Of a stretch of DNA of 64,000 nucleotides, positions 40,546-57,526 are shown piece after piece (positions within the stretch are counted from its first letter, which is position 1; each line of letters starts with the position of its first letter). This DNA comes from Tsukamurella sp. M9C. Its GTDB lineage: Bacteria > Actinomycetota > Actinomycetes > Mycobacteriales > Mycobacteriaceae. The position numbers and the translations under genes were made by a program. The stretch spans positions 186,001 through 250,000 of the forward strand of contig NZ_JAIULG010000002.1 in the NCBI RefSeq assembly GCF_020169415.1, read 5' to 3'. The notes below the pieces were generated by a model. It saw only the letters and a program-made list of their open reading frames with translations. It searched no databases and was not told the origin of the DNA.

Positions 40546-41013
40546 ATGTCGGCACTGGTGATCTGCGCGTCCAAGCACCACGGCAACACCCGGAAGGTGG
40601 CCGATCGGATCGGCGGGGTCCTGAACGCCCCGGTTCTCGCGCCGGGGGAGGTGACGGCGGAGCAGATCGACGCGGCCGACCTGGTCGGCTTCGGCTCGGG
40701 CGTGTACTGGATGGCCTTCGACCCCGCGCTACTCCGTCTCGTTCGCAGCCTCCCGGCGAAGCCGCGCGGAACGGCTTTCGTCTACGCCACCAGCGGCCTG
40801 CCGGAGACGCCGCTGCGCCGGTACACCCGCACGCTCGCGGACCTCCTCACCGACGCCGGCTTCCGGCTCGCGCCCGACCTGTTCCACTGCCGCGGACTCG
40901 ACACGATGGGACCGTTCGGCCTGGTCGGCGGCGTGAACAAGGGGCGTCCCAGCGCGGCCGACCTCGCGGACGCCGAGGACTTCGCGCGCGGGCTGCAGGA
41001 TTTGCGGGGATAA
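40546..41013 (+). CDS. flavodoxin-like protein
   Basis: The 155-residue protein has the flavodoxin phosphate loop ASKHHGNTRKVA (about residues 8-19), SGVYWMAFDPALLRLV and TSGLPETPLRRYTRTL, typical of FMN-binding flavodoxin-fold proteins. Electron partner unknown. It lies 60 bases upstream of the ThDP enzyme operon and reads in the same direction. A CRP-type site separates the two, so they are probably different transcription units. Confidence 0.78.
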   Translation: MSALVICASKHHGNTRKVADRIGGVLNAPVLAPGEVTAEQIDAADLVGFGSGVYWMAFDPALLRLVRSLPAKPRGTAFVYATSGLPETPLRRYTRTLADLLTDAGFRLAPDLFHCRGLDTMGPFGLVGGVNKGRPSAADLADAEDFARGLQDLRG

Positions 41014-41037
41014 TCGGACGGCGTTCGCCTGGTCGGT

Positions 41038-41053
41038 TGTGATTGCGATCACA
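41038..41053 (+). promoter_or_regulatory. CRP/GlxR site over the ThDP-KAS III promoter
   Basis: TGTGATTGCGATCACA is a perfect match to the CRP-family consensus TGTGA-N6-TCACA, with 7-base perfect arms. It spans -35 to -20 relative to the predicted leaderless start at GTG 41073 (-10 TACTGT at 41060-41065). In Corynebacteriales this site is bound by GlxR/Rv3676-type cAMP receptor proteins. Its place over the -35 suggests repression. Confidence 0.65.
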
Positions 41054-41059
41054 CCGGCC

Positions 41060-41065
41060 TACTGT
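41060..41065 (+). promoter_or_regulatory. -10 hexamer (TACTGT) of the ThDP enzyme operon
   Basis: TACTGT is at -13 to -8 before GTG 41073, the same hexamer and spacing as at 3895. It decides the start among TTG 41043, GTG 41064 and GTG 41073. Confidence 0.5.
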
Positions 41066-41072
41066 GAGGCTT

Positions 41073-42719
41073 GTGGCTTCAACGGTCGCCGACGAGATTG
41101 CAAATGCTTTGTATGCGTACGGTTTTCGCCACGCATACGGTATTCATGGTGCCAACTCCGAGGACCTCTTCGCCGCCCTGCTCCGGAGCGACGCGGACCA
41201 CCGCCTCACGGTGACCATCGCCAAGCACGAGTTCGGTGCCGGCGCCATGGCCGACGGTGCGGCGCGCATGACCGGGCGGCCCGGCTGCCTGATCGCCACC
41301 TCCGGCGGCGCGGCGATGAACTGCGTTCCCGCCCTGGCCGAGGCGTATCAGTCCCGCTCGCCGGTGCTCGCGCTCATCGGCAGCCCGCCGATCGCCGCCG
41401 AGGGCCGCGGTGCCTTCCAAGACATGTGTGCGGCGCCGCGCACCGTGGACGTCCTCGCCGTCCTCCGCGGAGTGACCGGCTTCGCCGCGAAGGTCTCCGG
41501 ACCGGAGGATCTCGCCCCCGCGCTGGACGGCGCCTTCGCGGCGCTGGAGCAGGGACTGCCCGCAGCGCTCCTCCTGCCCAAGGACGTCCAGCTCGCCGAC
41601 TGCCCCGCATCGGCGGCGCGCGCGCCGATCCCACCCGGGCCGGAGGTGCCGTCGGACGAGGTGGTGCGCCTCGTCGGCGCCGCCCGCAAGCCCCTGATCC
41701 TGCTCGGCGAGGCCGCGTCCCGGGCCCGGCTCGCCGGCCCCGTCGCGGCGCTGGCGGCGGCCACGGGCGCCGTGATCGCGGTCGGCCCCAACGGGCGCGA
41801 CGCCGCGCCCCGGACCGGCGTCGTGGGCGTCGCGGGCGTCATGGGGCATCCCTCGGTGCCACGGGTCGCGGCCGAGGCGGACCTCATCCTGGCCCTGGGC
41901 ACCGAGCTCGACCTCATGGACCGCACGGGCCTCGACGCCGCGATGGACGTCACCTGCACGGTGCACGTCGCAGCGGAGCCGCCGCTGCGCGAGGTGACGG
42001 TCCACGAGCCCGCCCGCGACCTCGCCGCCTACGCGAGGGCCCTCACGGACGCCGTCGTCACGCGCCCGCGCTCCCCGTGGACCGCCGCGGCGCCCGTCCC
42101 GATCACCGTGCCGCGGAACGAGTCCGGGTTGCTCACCTGCGCCGATGCCGTGGACGCGCTGGCCGCCGCGATCCCCGCCGAAGCCCTCGTCTTCGCCGAT
42201 GCCGGCAACGCCGGGGCCGCCGCGGTGCACCGGCTCCCGCTCGGCACCGGCGACCGCTTCCTCGTCGCGCTGGGCATGGGCGGCATGGGGCACGGGATCG
42301 CGGCGGGGATCGGCGCCGCGATCGCGACCGGCCGGCCCACGGTGATCCTCGCCGGCGACGGCGCCTTCTACATGCACGGCATGGAGATCCACACCGCGAT
42401 CGAGGCGCGGGCGCCCGTCCTGCTGGTGGTGCTCAACAACGACGCCCACGGCATGTGCGTGGCGCGCGAGGGGAAGTTCTTCCCCGACCTCCCCAGCATC
42501 AACCGGTTCCGGCCCAGCCGGATCGCCGACGGCCTCGCCGCCATGTTCCCCACCCTGCCCGTCAGCTCGGCCACCACGCCCGACGGTGCGCGGTCCGCCG
42601 CGGCCGAGCTCCTGGCCGTCACGGGCCGCGGACCGTCGTGCCTGGAGATCGGGACCGACCCCGCGGAGATCCCGCCGTTCGCAGCGCTGCTGCCCGATAC
42701 CGCGAAGGAGCGGCAATGA
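41073..42719 (+). CDS. acetolactate-synthase-like ThDP enzyme
   Basis: The 548-residue thiamine-diphosphate enzyme has three domains. The Pyr domain carries Glu53 (AKHEFGAGAMADG) that activates the cofactor; a central nucleotide-like domain follows (RKPLILLGEAASRARLAGPVAALAAATG); the PP domain has the ThDP/Mg motif GDGAFYMHG (GDG 428-430) ending in NND near 455. This is the acetolactate synthase/benzoylformate decarboxylase superfamily. It is not a housekeeping IlvB by neighbours: it is coupled by ATGA to an SRPBCC-like gene and then a KAS III. An acyloin- or alpha-hydroxyketone-forming carboligase is the likely role; substrates unknown. Confidence 0.85.
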   Translation: MASTVADEIANALYAYGFRHAYGIHGANSEDLFAALLRSDADHRLTVTIAKHEFGAGAMADGAARMTGRPGCLIATSGGAAMNCVPALAEAYQSRSPVLALIGSPPIAAEGRGAFQDMCAAPRTVDVLAVLRGVTGFAAKVSGPEDLAPALDGAFAALEQGLPAALLLPKDVQLADCPASAARAPIPPGPEVPSDEVVRLVGAARKPLILLGEAASRARLAGPVAALAAATGAVIAVGPNGRDAAPRTGVVGVAGVMGHPSVPRVAAEADLILALGTELDLMDRTGLDAAMDVTCTVHVAAEPPLREVTVHEPARDLAAYARALTDAVVTRPRSPWTAAAPVPITVPRNESGLLTCADAVDALAAAIPAEALVFADAGNAGAAAVHRLPLGTGDRFLVALGMGGMGHGIAAGIGAAIATGRPTVILAGDGAFYMHGMEIHTAIEARAPVLLVVLNNDAHGMCVAREGKFFPDLPSINRFRPSRIADGLAAMFPTLPVSSATTPDGARSAAAELLAVTGRGPSCLEIGTDPAEIPPFAALLPDTAKERQ

Positions 42720-43348
42720 TCCCGGTGATCGACATCGAAGGAACCATCCGGATCGAGAGTCACCCGCGCCCGGTGGCGCAGCCGATCCTCGTCGACCGCA
42801 TGCGCTCGGTGTACCCGCACCAGCAGATCTACGGCGACTTCTGCCCCGTGCAGTCCTACGTCAACGCCCCGCCCGACGATCTCTACGACTGGCTCTCCGA
42901 CACCCGCTCCCTCGAGGAGTGGACCTACAGCCTGCGCGGCTTCCGCGAGACCGACGAGGCCGGCCTGTGGGTCGCGCGCGACATGCTCGGCGCCGACACC
43001 GAGATCTACACGCGCACCGTCGCCCACCCGGACGCCCGGACCGTCGACTACCACTGCGCCTGGGACCAGGGGAAGCATCTCTGGATGATCTACCTGATGC
43101 GGATCGTCGACGCGCAGCTCGTGCTGAACAAGCCCGGCTCCGTGGTGCTGTGGGTCAACTGCCACCACCCCTTCTACGACGAGAACCCGTACCCCGAGAC
43201 GGCGCCGCCCGAGCGGCCCGTGTGGGTCGGCGACCTGTGGGACACGTTCGGAGCCGGGCACCAGATGGAACTCGAGAACCTCAAGGCGATCGCCGAACAC
43301 CGGCACGCGCACGGCGAGCCGATCAAGCCCGAATGGATGACGTCGTGA
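42716..43348 (+). CDS. SRPBCC-like protein of the ThDP/KAS III operon
   Basis: The 210-residue protein has VQSYVNAPPDDLYDWLSDTRSLEEWTYSLRGFRET, the opening of START/SRPBCC (polyketide cyclase-like) ligand-binding folds, and later TRTVAHPDARTVDYHCAWDQGKHLWMIYLMRIVDAQ. The C-terminal end (FGAGHQMELENLKAIAEHRHAHGE) is a long helix as in that fold. It is coupled at both ends (ATGA before, overlap after), so it probably binds or shapes an intermediate between the carboligase and the ketosynthase. Confidence 0.65.
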   Translation: MIPVIDIEGTIRIESHPRPVAQPILVDRMRSVYPHQQIYGDFCPVQSYVNAPPDDLYDWLSDTRSLEEWTYSLRGFRETDEAGLWVARDMLGADTEIYTRTVAHPDARTVDYHCAWDQGKHLWMIYLMRIVDAQLVLNKPGSVVLWVNCHHPFYDENPYPETAPPERPVWVGDLWDTFGAGHQMELENLKAIAEHRHAHGEPIKPEWMTS

Positions 43349-44370
43349 CCGCCCCGCTCGTGAACCCGCGGATCGTCGGGCTGACCTCGTACCTGCCCGA
43401 GAACCGGGTGCCCGCCGAGTACTTCCGCGAGTTCGCCGACGCCGACAGCCGCACGCTCACCGCCAATCCGATGTTCGCGCCGCCCGCGTACCGGCATCAC
43501 GCCGCGGCGGGGGAATCCAACGTCGACCTGATGTGCGCGGCGATCGACCGGCTCCGCGAGCAGGTCGGGGACGAGGCCCTGCAGGTCGACGTGGTCCTGA
43601 GCCACTCGCAGCTGCCGGACCTGCCGGTCGTCGGCTGCGGCGGCGACGTCGTGCGCCGGCTCGGCACCCGGCCCTCACTGGTCCTGGACATCCACAACGG
43701 CGGCTGCGCAGCCTTCCTGCTCATGCTGCACCTCGCCCGCACGATGTTCACCGCCGGGACCGCGCAATCGGCCCTGCTCCTCACCGCCACGAACGCGGCC
43801 GGGAACGTCTTCACCCAGGACCGGGTGCGGAACCTGCCGCAGGCCGCCATCCCGGGCGACGGTGCCGCCGCCGCCCTCGTCGTCGCCGACCCGCAGGCCG
43901 GAGGGCTGGAGGTCCGGGAGGTGGTGTGCGCGCAGCACAGCGAGTACGCGGGCGACATGACCGCCGCCGTTGAGCCGTCGCGCAAGTACTGGGAGGCGGG
44001 CGAGGGACAGCTGCACGTGGGCTTCACCGAGGCCAAGATCGCGAAGGTCCTCGCCCGCGGAAACCGGCTCGTGCCCGAGGTCGCGCTCGCCGCCGCGGCG
44101 TCGGGAGGCCTGCGCGGCCCCGACGTCGGGCACCTCGTCACCAATCAGCCCAACCGGACGTTCCTCCGCAACTGGCGCGAGGCGCTCGAGCTCCCGCCGG
44201 AGCGGCACCCCGACACCTTCGACGAGTGCGGCAACCTCTTCGCCGTCGGCGTCCCGCACACCTTCGCCACCGCCCGCGCGGACGGGCGGATCGGCACGGG
44301 GGAGGACGTGGTCCTCGCGGCCTTCGCGCACGCCGGCGACTTCGCGGCCGGGGCGCTGCTGCGCACCTAG
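43333..44370 (+). CDS. KAS III (FabH-like) enzyme with His-to-Asn change
   Basis: The 345-residue thiolase-fold protein starts at ATG 43333 (GTG 43345, overlapping the previous stop by GTGA, is an alternative). The nucleophile is Cys125 in DIHNGGCAAFLLML. FabH uses Cys-His-Asn; here the segment equivalent to PHQAN reads TNQPN, so the catalytic His is Asn271, while Asn301 (ECGNLFAVGVP) is kept at the same 30-residue spacing as E. coli His244-Asn274. Decarboxylative condensation may be impaired, and acyl transfer to a hydroxyl or amine is a possible alternative. Last gene of the operon. Confidence 0.82.
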   Translation: MDDVVTAPLVNPRIVGLTSYLPENRVPAEYFREFADADSRTLTANPMFAPPAYRHHAAAGESNVDLMCAAIDRLREQVGDEALQVDVVLSHSQLPDLPVVGCGGDVVRRLGTRPSLVLDIHNGGCAAFLLMLHLARTMFTAGTAQSALLLTATNAAGNVFTQDRVRNLPQAAIPGDGAAAALVVADPQAGGLEVREVVCAQHSEYAGDMTAAVEPSRKYWEAGEGQLHVGFTEAKIAKVLARGNRLVPEVALAAAASGGLRGPDVGHLVTNQPNRTFLRNWREALELPPERHPDTFDECGNLFAVGVPHTFATARADGRIGTGEDVVLAAFAHAGDFAAGALLRT

Positions 44371-44411
44371 CCGGTTCGGGCCGGCCGTCCGGGGCCGGTC
44401 GTTCGGGCTAG
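44367..44411. terminator. bidirectional hairpin spanning two convergent stops
   Basis: CTAGCC (44367-44372) pairs with GGCTAG (44406-44411), and CCGGCC (44381-44386) with GGCCGG (44393-44398) over a 6-base loop. The outer arms contain both stop codons, TAG of the KAS III gene and that of the convergent esterase. The symmetric structure would end both transcripts; no T tract is present. Confidence 0.5.
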
Positions 44412-45661
44412 CCCCGAAGGCCCAGGCGGCCGCCGAGCCAGTCGAGTTCGGCGGTCAGCCCGCCCGACCACACGGTGAAGTCGTGCCCGCCCCGGATCCA
44501 TCGGGTGCGCACCGTCATCCCGGCTCCCGCGGCGGCGACGGCCACCCGTTTCGCGGCGGCGGTCGATGCGGCGTCGTCGGTGCCTGCGACGAGCACGCCC
44601 GCGCTGTCCGGGAAGCGCCGCAGCGACAGCTGGGTGAGCGGGTCCGCCCGCGCGTACGCACCGCGATCACCGGCGAAGGCGTCCCGGACGGTGGCCTCGC
44701 GCCCTCCTCCCAGGTCCGGCTCCGCGTCGGGCGAGAGCGCCAGGAACGTCCGGAAGACCTCCGGGAACCGGGTCGCCAGTTGCAGCGCGCAGGTGCCGCC
44801 GTAGGAGTAGCCGCCGACCGCCCACGCCTGCGGGGCGGCATCCACCGCCAGGTTCTGGCGCACCCACGCGGGCACGTCCTCGGCGAGATAGGTCGCCGCC
44901 CGGGCGCGCCGGGTGTCGGCGCAGAGCGGGTTCGCGAACTGCCCGCCCGTCGCGTCCGGCACCACCACGACCGGCGCGACGCCGCCCCGCCGCTGCGCAT
45001 AGGAGTCCATCGTCCGGGCCAGCTTCCCGCCCGAGAACCAGTCCCGCGGCGAGCCCGGCTGCCCGTGCAGGAGCATCAGCACCGGCAGCCGCTCGCGCGC
45101 ACCGGACAGGTACGCCGGCGGTAGGTAGACCAGCGCCGGGCGGGCCGCGAACCGGGAGCGGGTGGGCGGCACCGTCGCCCGTACGACCACGCCGCGCTCG
45201 GCGGTCGTGCCGGGGGAGGGACGGGGCACCGTCGCCGGGTAGTCGACGGGCAGCAGGTCCTCCACCGACGGGTACGCCGAGTACAGCGAGTTCACCTGGC
45301 CGGCGCCCATCAGGACCACCAGGCCGACCGCCGCGGTGCTCAGCGCCGTGGACCGCCACGACGGTGCCCGAGTCACCCGCACCCCGGCGAGCAGCAGGGC
45401 GAGCACGCCGAGGGCGACCCACAGCAGCACCAGCGGGTCGAGGCGGTCGGGGAACGGCTTCCACACGAACTCGACCAGGTAGTCCACGAGCGCGGTCACG
45501 CCGAGCGCGGCGGCCACGCAGGCGAGGACGGTGCGCGCGGACCCGCTGCGACGGGTCGCGGAGATCAGGCCGGCGAGCGCGGCCGCTCCGGCGAGGAGCA
45601 GGAGGAGTGGTACCGGACCGGCCGTGAGCTGCAGGTTCCGCAGGGGGCTCACCGGCCGCAC
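44408..45661 (-). CDS. membrane-anchored esterase (PF00756 type)
   Basis: The 417-residue protein has four N-terminal membrane helices (LLLLLAGAAALAGLISA, VLACVAAALGVTALVDYLV, PLVLLWVALGVLALLLAGV, STAAVGLVVLMGAGQV) and an extracytoplasmic esterase domain: RLPVLMLLHGQPGSPRDWF, nucleophile elbow GGYSYGGTCALQL, and GGHDFTVW with the likely His. PF00756 includes the mycolyltransferases (antigen 85) and enterochelin-type esterases; the membrane-anchored form with four helices is a known corynebacterial variant. Actual substrate unknown. Confidence 0.82.
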   Translation of the reverse strand: MRPVSPLRNLQLTAGPVPLLLLLAGAAALAGLISATRRSGSARTVLACVAAALGVTALVDYLVEFVWKPFPDRLDPLVLLWVALGVLALLLAGVRVTRAPSWRSTALSTAAVGLVVLMGAGQVNSLYSAYPSVEDLLPVDYPATVPRPSPGTTAERGVVVRATVPPTRSRFAARPALVYLPPAYLSGARERLPVLMLLHGQPGSPRDWFSGGKLARTMDSYAQRRGGVAPVVVVPDATGGQFANPLCADTRRARAATYLAEDVPAWVRQNLAVDAAPQAWAVGGYSYGGTCALQLATRFPEVFRTFLALSPDAEPDLGGGREATVRDAFAGDRGAYARADPLTQLSLRRFPDSAGVLVAGTDDAASTAAAKRVAVAAAGAGMTVRTRWIRGGHDFTVWSGGLTAELDWLGGRLGLRG

Positions 45662-52368: not shown

Positions 52369-53673
52369 CTACACCCGTTCGTACGCCTCCGCAGTGGTCT
52401 TGGCGTCCTCGATGAAGCGCTCGACATCGGCCTCCGTGCGGAAGTCGAGGATCGGCGCGGGCTCGGAAAGGAGCCCGAACAGCGCGGCGCCCACGGCGTC
52501 ATCGGCGACCGCGCCCGCGAACAGCAGGCCCGCGGCGAAGGCGTAGTCCGGATCGCCCAGGAACAGGCGGGTGACCTCGGCCGCGGCGTGACCGCGCTCC
52601 TCCCAGTGCCGGTCGAACTGGTCCGTGATCCATTCGGCGGTGAAGTCCGAGCCGCGCGCCTCGATGGCCTTGACCAGCGCCGCCACCTGGATCAGCCCGG
52701 TCTGCGCGCCCTGCCCGGCGATCGGGTCGAAGGCGATCGCGGAGTCGCCGAGCGCGAGGACGGGGCGGCCGCCGCGGGTGTGGCCGACGCCCTGCCGCAC
52801 GGTCGGGGTGACGGCGCCGCGCAGCCACGAATGCTTGTCCTCGTCGATGACGCGGAGCTTCTCGATGTCGGGCAGGTCGTCGGGGAAGTAGTCGCGGTAG
52901 ACGCTGACCACCACCTCGAGGGCGCTCTGCGCGTCGGTCACCTCGCCGAACCGCTGCACCCAGTCACCGTCGGGCTTGGCGAACCCGAGCACGCTCCACG
53001 TCGCGCCCGCGTCCTTGTGCCAGTACGGCCCGATCCAGATCTCGCCGTGGTCGGTGTGCAGGTTGAAGACGTTGTGCTTGCCCGCGCCGTGCCCGCGCGC
53101 CGTGAAGACGTCGTCGCCGTGACCGAGCCCGGTGAACGCGGCGGCCAGGAGGTGCCGCTGGGGCGAGCGGTAGACGGTGCGCGCCTCGTCGACCGGGAAG
53201 AGGCCCGACAGGCCGCCCTTGCCGGTGGAGATCAGCGTGAGATCGTGCGCAGCGGCGATGGCGTCGAGGTTCTCGGGGGTGACGGTCTCGACCTGGAAGT
53301 CGCCGCCGGCCTGCTCGAACAGGCGGATCCGGTCGTAGGCGCGCAGGCGCACGTCGATACCGGCGGCGGTGTAGGTGAAGTCCGGGTCGAAGGCGAGCAC
53401 CTGCTCCAGTGCGCCCGGCGCACCGGTGTTGAGGCGGGTGTTCATGCCGGTCGAGAGCGGGGCGTCGGGATAGAGCTCCTCGACGAGGGTGTGGTCGACG
53501 TCCCGGGAGTGGCCGAAGAGGACGGCGGTGCCGGTCGCGGGGACCTCGTCGCGCAGCTGCTCGGCCGTGCGGTCGCTGTAGAGGTCGACAGGGTGGCCGG
53601 CGCGGGCGAGGACGAGCGCGGCGGTGGCTCCCACCACTCCGGCGCCGATGATGGCGATGCGTGCCTGGGTCAT
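52369..53673 (-). CDS. StyA-like FAD monooxygenase
   Basis: The 434-residue flavoprotein begins ARIAIIGAGVVGATAALVLARAGHPVDLYSDRT (GxGxxG) and has LALGDSAIAFDPIAGQGAQTGL, typical of group E styrene/indole monooxygenases, which use FADH2 from a separate reductase to epoxidise alkenes. It is 36 bases downstream of the SfnB-like monooxygenase gene and ends 11 bases before the APC permease start. No obvious flavin reductase is adjacent. Substrate unknown. Confidence 0.78.
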   Translation of the reverse strand: MTQARIAIIGAGVVGATAALVLARAGHPVDLYSDRTAEQLRDEVPATGTAVLFGHSRDVDHTLVEELYPDAPLSTGMNTRLNTGAPGALEQVLAFDPDFTYTAAGIDVRLRAYDRIRLFEQAGGDFQVETVTPENLDAIAAAHDLTLISTGKGGLSGLFPVDEARTVYRSPQRHLLAAAFTGLGHGDDVFTARGHGAGKHNVFNLHTDHGEIWIGPYWHKDAGATWSVLGFAKPDGDWVQRFGEVTDAQSALEVVVSVYRDYFPDDLPDIEKLRVIDEDKHSWLRGAVTPTVRQGVGHTRGGRPVLALGDSAIAFDPIAGQGAQTGLIQVAALVKAIEARGSDFTAEWITDQFDRHWEERGHAAAEVTRLFLGDPDYAFAAGLLFAGAVADDAVGAALFGLLSEPAPILDFRTEADVERFIEDAKTTAEAYERV

Positions 53674-56831: not shown

Positions 56832-57254
56832 TCAGCCCGTGAACTCCCACGGGTTGACCAGTGGCACGCCAGTGGGCTCGAAATGCTTGGTGTTGCGGGT
56901 GACAACGGTCAGACCGTGCATGATCGCGGTGCCTGCGATGATGGAGTCGTTCCCAGGTAGAGGGTCCGGCGATCGAAGCTGGGCACTCAGGCGAGCGATC
57001 AGGCGATCCACCGGAATCGTACGTTCTGCGAACCTGGCGAGAACGTCGTCGTCGAACCACTTCCGTAGAACCGCGCCTGCTGGGGCGTCCGTGCGTTCCT
57101 TCTTGACGATTCCGCGTTCGATCTCCATCACCGTGAGCACGCTGATGAAGTGGCGCGAAGCGTCCTGCCCCTGCGCCCACCTCACGACACGCGGATCCGC
57201 GAGGGCCGGGCGGCGCAGTTCGCTGAGGACATTGGTGTCGAGGAGGTAGCTCAC
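56832..57254 (-). CDS. vapC: VapC-like PIN-domain toxin
   Basis: The 140-residue ribonuclease has the PIN acidic residues in LLDTNVLSELRRP, a central Glu (VMEIERGIVKK), LPGNDSIIAGTAIMHGLTVVTRNTKHFE. GTG 57254 overlaps the antitoxin stop (GTGA). Such toxins cut tRNA or rRNA when the antitoxin is lost. No genes of a mobile element lie nearby. Confidence 0.88.
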   Translation of the reverse strand: MSYLLDTNVLSELRRPALADPRVVRWAQGQDASRHFISVLTVMEIERGIVKKERTDAPAGAVLRKWFDDDVLARFAERTIPVDRLIARLSAQLRSPDPLPGNDSIIAGTAIMHGLTVVTRNTKHFEPTGVPLVNPWEFTG

Positions 57255-57526
57255 GATAAGTCGACTTCGCGGGGCGTCCAATCGATGAGGCCCGTCTCGA
57301 ACTCGAGGTCCAGGTCGGGATCCACCGGTCCTTTCATCGCGAGGGCGTCAGCTAGGTTCATCGGCGGCTCCTCCCGACGCCGATAAGCCGCAATCGACAT
57401 CAACACGTACGCGGGTTCCCCTCGGTCGGTGATGAACACCGGCGCCTCATCAGCGGCCCGCTTCGCCGCGCTGACGTCACGGTTGAAGTCGCGGGCGGAT
57501 ATCGACCTGTTCACCATGTCAGTCAC
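57251..57526 (-). CDS. Phd/YefM-type antitoxin
   Basis: The 91-residue protein has an N-terminal Phd/YefM DNA-binding domain (NRSISARDFNRDVSAAKRAADEAPVFITDRGEPAYVLMSIAAYRRR) and an acidic toxin-binding tail (PVDPDLDLEFETGLIDWTPREVD). GTG 57526 follows AGGAGGTG; ATG 57517 is possible. The palindrome 12 bases upstream (57538-57557) should be its autorepression site. Confidence 0.85.
   Translation of the reverse strand: MTDMVNRSISARDFNRDVSAAKRAADEAPVFITDRGEPAYVLMSIAAYRRREEPPMNLADALAMKGPVDPDLDLEFETGLIDWTPREVDLS

Follow-up and report, generated by a model that had tools for sequence, protein, structure and literature searches.

The cassette and its three proteins

Within a 64,000-nucleotide stretch of the Tsukamurella sp. 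M9C genome (contig NZ_JAIULG010000002.1, positions 186,001 to 250,000 of the forward strand; hereafter, the window), we analyzed three consecutive genes, named A, B and C and collectively termed the cassette. They encode a thiamine diphosphate (ThDP)-dependent carboligase, an SRPBCC protein and an enzyme resembling β-ketoacyl-acyl carrier protein synthase III (KAS III). An overlapping operon of these three families at 41073–44370 had been proposed from the letters of the DNA (the original prediction), and the open reading frames of the window bore this out, with all three genes co-directional, intact and free of internal stops:

41073–42719, + strand: A, ThDP-dependent carboligase resembling CqsB3/NzsH, 548 amino acids (Pfam TPP_enzyme N, M and C domains)
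42716–43348, + strand: B, putative SRPBCC carbazole synthase resembling CqsB2/NzsI, 210 amino acids (match to PDB 6ipv, Foldseek)
43333–44370, + strand: C, KAS III-like condensing enzyme resembling CqsB1/NzsJ, 345 amino acids from the ATG (Pfam, fold)

Genes A and B overlap by 4 nt (ATGA), and genes B and C by 16 nt if C is read from the ATG at 43333 or by 4 nt if it begins at the GTG at 43345. Codon-position GC content is coding-like in all three (0.93–0.96 at the third position). As also noted originally, no acyl carrier protein (ACP), ketosynthase-acyltransferase or polyketide synthase gene adjoins the cassette. The mabA-inhA-like genes of the window lie ~30 kb away.

The Cqs and Nzs proteins belong to carbazole alkaloid pathways. 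As reviewed by Kobayashi and Kuzuyama (PMC7466098), CqsB3/NzsH (ThDP) joins indole-3-pyruvate and pyruvate, CqsB1/NzsJ (KAS III-like) carries out a decarboxylative condensation of the ThDP product and an acyl thioester, and ring closure and aromatization fall to CqsB2/NzsI. The review also reports that CqsB1/2/3 and NzsJ/I/H have been reconstituted, for carquinostatin and neocarazostatin respectively, that CqsB2 acts as the carbazole synthase in the carquinostatin A pathway of Streptomyces exfoliatus and yields an ortho-quinone without cofactors, and that the aminotransferase role is held by CqsB7 (PMC7466098).

The best NCBIfam score of A was to an acetolactate synthase model, at 152.8 bits compared to a cut-off of 538, which distinguishes it from housekeeping IlvB, as the original prediction presupposed. 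Glu53 and the GDG...NN ThDP motif are kept in its relatives, and, judged by its sequence, A is a ThDP carboligase of the CqsB3/NzsH type.

Protein B matched no Pfam family; upon comparison to all PDB sequences, its single significant match was CqsB2 (6ipv/6ipw, E=1.6e-48, residues 24–201). Its predicted structure (mean predicted local distance difference test score, pLDDT, of 72) ranked 6ipv first in Foldseek (5.4e-18); next, roughly ten orders of magnitude behind, came abscisic-acid receptors and the TcmN aromatase/cyclase. CqsB2 residues Y144, Y172, H206 and E209 align with Y126, Y154, H182 and E185 of B, which are kept in 95–97 of 97 relatives, and E105 aligns with D89; by this alignment, four of the five proposed CqsB2 catalytic residues are retained in B and the fifth is conservatively replaced. 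Conservation is also highest in B, whose copies differ pairwise by 25% on average, as against 48% in A and 39% in C. Of the two roles earlier suggested for the SRPBCC protein, holding or cyclizing the intermediate, homology to CqsB2 with its catalytic residues retained points to cyclization.

These features bear directly on the xenocyloin pathway, which had served as the initial analogy for this operon. Xenocyloins are made by XclA-E, in which an acetolactate synthase-like ThDP enzyme makes an indole acyloin and KAS-type proteins also take part; the pathway is not known to close a ring. An equivalent route, in which A would make an acyloin, C would acylate it and B would merely hold the substrate, appears very improbable to us. 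The analogy does carry over for the ThDP step, as A would give an indole acyloin in either pathway, and XclB/XclC are cited in the literature as KAS-type acylating enzymes (PMC4425429). Acylation without ring closure, however, does not fit a B protein that is a carbazole synthase homologue with catalytic residues in place, and the low divergence of B favors catalysis over holding. The related proposal that the KAS III acylates a finished acyloin gives way to the Cqs/Nzs precedent, namely decarboxylative C–C condensation prior to ring closure by the SRPBCC protein.

Protein C contains the Pfam domains ACP_syn_III and ACP_syn_III_C, and its predicted structure (pLDDT 84) adopts a KAS III fold, with FabH and PqsD among its structural neighbors; its score lies far below the FabH cut-off. 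In place of a Cys-His-Asn triad, its active site displays Cys125-Asn271-Asn301: Cys125 is kept in all 97 relatives and Asn301 in 96, and Asn271 replaces the catalytic His in 94. For comparison of the triad, we used two Streptomycetaceae-type copies that resemble the CqsB genes in order and sequence (L113, from Embleya, and L139, the second copy of genome G648) as stand-ins for CqsB1/NzsJ; these retain Glu in protein B and His in protein C. Asp89 of B and Asn271 of C thus mark, at the sequence level, the clade of mycolic bacteria as a variant belonging to the known cassette type. As a hypothesis, the two changes may have to do with the acyl donor or with C4 oxygenation.

A proposed route to a lipocarbazole-type product

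Collectively, these assignments make it likely, in our estimation, that the operon encodes a minimal core pathway for carbazole alkaloids and that its Tsukamurella product is of the lipocarbazole type. The original prediction had left the product class unknown and the chemistry uncharacterized, a position superseded by the homology of B to CqsB2 and by the reconstitution of homologues of all three enzymes (PMC7466098). By analogy to the Cqs/Nzs enzymes, we infer the following substrates and order of steps. An aromatic aminotransferase acting in trans would convert tryptophan to indole-3-pyruvate, which A, by CqsB3/NzsH precedent, would join to pyruvate. C, bearing an acyl group on Cys125, would then couple that group decarboxylatively to the resulting acid, yielding an unstable indolyl diketone, and B would bind this diketone, closing and aromatizing ring A to deliver a 1-alkyl-2-methyl-3-oxygenated carbazole. 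The acyl group used in Tsukamurella is probably a long chain drawn from primary lipid metabolism, as the cassette comes with no dedicated ACP, and the molecule formed would probably be a membrane-anchored antioxidant of the lipocarbazole type.

Lipocarbazoles are 3-oxygenated antioxidant carbazoles, isolated from strain Acta 1857 of T. pseudospumae (Schneider et al. 2009, as cited in PMC7466098), a species of the genus to which the window belongs. In T. pseudospumae JCM 13375 (L036), a strain other than the producer Acta 1857, A, B and C are open and full length. As the species from which lipocarbazoles come carries the same intact cassette, these compounds are the best guess for the product. 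Furthermore, B was detected in 15 of 16 genomes of the genus Tsukamurella (that of the window included), once in each, with one poor assembly giving a split match; this single copy makes B the only candidate carbazole synthase in the genomes searched. Assignment to lipocarbazoles hence appears well motivated. A search of the open-access literature returned no lipocarbazole gene cluster. The cassette supplies a candidate gene set, one small enough for one-step expression. It also offers a direct test of a question posed by the review, which describes the machinery for mono-oxygenated carbazoles as still to be identified (PMC7466098).

Several observations weigh against this assignment. Formation of a 3-hydroxy product would require hydride where, in the CqsB2 scheme, water is used. 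No cassette-linked gene obviously supplies a hydride donor; one gene was considered for this role:

40546–41013: flavodoxin-like gene, adjoining A on its 5′ side in most Tsukamurella

This gene is kept in a cassette-less Tsukamurella (L146) and is consequently a weak candidate. Additionally, no aminotransferase adjoins the cassette in the window (HisC-like homologues occur elsewhere in the same genome, the best at 36% identity), Asp takes the place of E105 (D89 in B) in 95 of 97 relatives, and the exchange of His for Asn in C may reflect a mechanism or substrate differing from that of CqsB1. For the chain length, the product itself and its connection to these genes, and the missing reductant for a 3-hydroxy product, as for the CRP-type control considered below, we infer rather than observe.

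A competing reading is a di-oxygenated carbazole (a 3,4-catechol or an ortho-quinone, as in carquinostatin/carbazoquinocin), in which water, not hydride, would add at C4 in B. We regard this outcome as unlikely: although the homologue CqsB2 gives an ortho-quinone cofactor-free, four of five proposed catalytic residues are retained in B and no reductase is linked to the cassette, the known carbazoles of the genus are the 3-oxygenated lipocarbazoles, and the mycolic clade differs from CqsB-type copies by its two signature changes (B Asp89, C Asn271). Less probable still is that the enzymes apply this chemistry to a different aryl-pyruvate (phenylpyruvate or 4-hydroxyphenylpyruvate) and build another fused ring. 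ThDP enzymes of this superfamily can be promiscuous, and HisC/PRK03321-type aminotransferases can take several aromatic amino acids; the range reported for NzsH is nonetheless narrow (indole-3-pyruvate, 2-oxobutyrate; PMC7466098), the products known from the genus are carbazoles, and B is closest to a carbazole synthase.

Regarding the surroundings of the cassette, no prenyltransferase, P450 or other tailoring gene was found among its widely conserved neighbors. An esterase gene (44408–45661) was rejected as a pathway gene, being on the opposite strand and missing beside several cassettes. Two genes 3′ of the cassette, a TrpB-like gene (NF009057; 45752–47050) is conserved in most Tsukamurella; its proximity to a tryptophan-consuming pathway possibly reflects local tryptophan supply, or is a coincidence. 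Farther away, the window holds a StyA-like styrene/indole monooxygenase gene (52369–53673, − strand) beside an amino-acid permease gene, ~8 kb from the cassette, and a PIN-domain toxin and Phd/YefM antitoxin pair (56832–57526, − strand).

Linkage, distribution and control

To describe linkage, we scanned genomes with an alignment of B, which recovered 493 relatives, and drew locus counts from the best 80. These 80 derive from Tsukamurella, Gordonia, Nocardia, Mycobacterium, Mycolicibacterium, Williamsia and Antrihabitans, apart from a handful of assemblies with loose names. All three genes are present in 79 loci, and the remaining one is without A; this and a separate genome search of the genus substantiate the co-occurrence of the three families that had been suggested as a check. 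In 71 of the 80 loci the order is A-B-C-D, where D is an aminotransferase of the HisC/PRK03321 type, and the eight loci named Tsukamurella contain A-B-C only. The three proteins diverge in step with one another (r 0.75–0.89). Such linkage, maintained across several genera in differing gene neighborhoods, renders it scarcely credible that an IlvB paralogue, an orphan SRPBCC gene and a FabH paralogue are housekeeping neighbors by chance. In its favor, A is remotely similar to acetolactate synthases and C to FabH, but that reading is refuted by the conserved linkage and by scores far under the IlvB and FabH cut-offs, and it is also at odds with the gene overlaps and with an empty site in one species. 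The earlier notion of a small, uncharacterized natural-product pathway of mycolic bacteria accordingly holds insofar as this is a co-inherited natural-product operon, and falls short in that its chemistry has already been described.

Across the family of the window, B was found in 151 of 401 genomes (16 of 31 genera), and a class-wide sample contained it in 28 of 395 genomes, 24 of them in that same family. T. ocularis B is 99% identical to that of the window. One Tsukamurella genome (G011) is without A, B, C and the esterase gene, leaving the flavodoxin-like and TrpB-like genes ~145 bp apart. Decay was seen in two further cassettes, one with an internal deletion of B and C (G037; L028, 7563–10071) and one with an in-frame TAG in B (G023; L027, 8789–9397). 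In Tsukamurella sp. PLM1 (L040), the cassette and its neighbors are broken by several apparent frameshifts; sequencing errors are likely there, as the genome scored 83% complete. G648, of the same class but another family, harbors both a mycolic-type cassette (L138), which trees of B and of C nest with Nocardia, and the CqsB-like L139, which suggests horizontal transfer. A contig named Acidobacteriaceae bacterium (L045; CAJCHX010000662.1) bears a cassette that groups with Tsukamurella and is classed in the genus of the window in another collection; its public name looks wrong. On a plasmid of Nocardia sp. NBC_01327 (L114, 2995–12379), B and A lie on one strand and the KAS and aminotransferase genes on the other, with a roadblock/GTPase signaling operon between the two halves of this rearranged carbazole cassette.

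Upstream of A in the window, two candidate control elements overlap:

41037–41065, + strand: promoter-like element, with −35 TTGTGA (41037–41042), a 17 bp spacer and −10 TACTGT (41060–41065)
41038–41053, no strand assigned: perfect CRP/GlxR-type palindrome TGTGATTGCGATCACA, overlapping the −35

The −10 ends 7 nt upstream of the GTG at 41073, and because this start lies so close, the transcript is probably leaderless. A CCTAC-GTG box downstream of the element and the GTG start are kept across aligned Tsukamurella upstream regions, consistent with a promoter function. The palindrome, which we take to be a CRP/GlxR site, is the sole match in the window at ≤1 mismatch (chance mean 0.71) and recurs at the same position, with 0–1 mismatch, in 10 of 13 upstream regions of the Tsukamurella lineage. 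Its overlap with the −35 would suggest repression.

A different form of control is predicted in Mycobacterium and Nocardia. In M. triplex (L075), the gene order is secY, adk, map, an extracytoplasmic function (ECF) sigma factor gene, a zinc-finger anti-sigma factor gene, A, B, C, D and a MarR gene. The best match of the cassette-adjacent sigma factor (Nocardia copy as query) was M. tuberculosis SigL (6dv9, E=4.4e-30). RslA loses its affinity for SigL upon oxidation (PMC2877774). As a literature search for the SigL consensus gave nothing useful, the SigL-type motif was anchored on its presence before sigL. We found TGAAC[CT]-N16-CGT before A in 19 of 19 loci with rslA just upstream, and, of the 38 times that the motif occurs there, 35 are before A or sigL (0.09 per locus and strand in shuffled sequence). 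With looser spacing, the motif precedes A in Mycobacterium (28/30), Nocardia (14/16), Mycolicibacterium (5/8) and Antrihabitans (1/1), also at loci away from sigL, and in none of 22 loci from Tsukamurella, Gordonia and Williamsia; these loci are related and hence are not independent observations. Loci with the motif include L050, L051, L055, L060, L063, L074 and L075, often in the slot between rslA and the MarR gene. SigL control of carbazole synthesis in the genera with this motif is thus a strong prediction. Gordonia and two divergent genomes of the Tsukamurella lineage instead have genes for a two-component system next to the cassette. The M. tuberculosis gene that directly follows sigL-rslA is rv0737 (MarR; PMC13002591), and by this published gene order the operon is absent from that slot.

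A SigL-type promoter suggests a role for the product, that of a lipid antioxidant made upon oxidation, within the regulon of a redox-sensing sigma factor. More tentatively, and with slightly less than even confidence, we propose that long-chain carbazoles are widespread, overlooked membrane antioxidants of mycolic-acid bacteria, assembled by a cassette of three or four genes with a Cys-Asn-Asn KAS III-like enzyme, switched on by the redox-sensing SigL/RslA pair in many mycobacteria and Nocardia, controlled otherwise in Tsukamurella and Gordonia, and missing from the M. tuberculosis sigL-rslA slot.

Comparison with known systems

Of the pathways compared, xenocyloin biosynthesis resembles A and C in the described families of its enzymes. 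Scytonemin biosynthesis is alike in that a ThDP carboligase (ScyA) acts on indole-3-pyruvate, followed by a cyclase (ScyC), and the NCBIfam ScyC model matches B weakly; its core step differs in having no KAS III, and membership in this family was rejected (ScyA, 98.7 bits vs. a cut-off of 1020; ScyC, 19.9 vs. 400).

The neocarazostatin (NzsH/NzsI/NzsJ) and chlocarbazomycin (chlCz2/5/3) clusters share with A, B and C the trio of ThDP, SRPBCC and KAS III-like proteins. A HisC-type aminotransferase is reported for both clusters (PMC10100901), where the NzsD homologue chlCz1 bears this annotation; it matches gene D of most cassette relatives. Whereas these clusters carry tailoring genes and an ACP gene, the Tsukamurella operon consists of three genes only. 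With carquinostatin, the cassette shares the same three protein families (CqsB3/CqsB2/CqsB1) but is without an adjacent dedicated ACP, KAS III, prenyltransferase or isomerase gene. Gene order also differs (A-B-C in Tsukamurella, KAS-B-ThDP in L113 and L139), as do two residues, Asp for E105 in B and, in C, Asn where L113 and L139 have the catalytic His.

Carbazole-synthase operons have been reported, in the review, from some Streptomyces, one myxobacterium and one cyanobacterium (PMC7466098). Our search of the open-access literature, outside which most subscription papers fall, found no paper tying the operons of mycolic bacteria to carbazoles. To these known systems, in which the core chemistry is already described, the present analysis adds a predicted regulatory link and a broad distribution of carbazole-synthase operons, which reach into hundreds of mycobacterial, Nocardia, Gordonia and Tsukamurella genomes.

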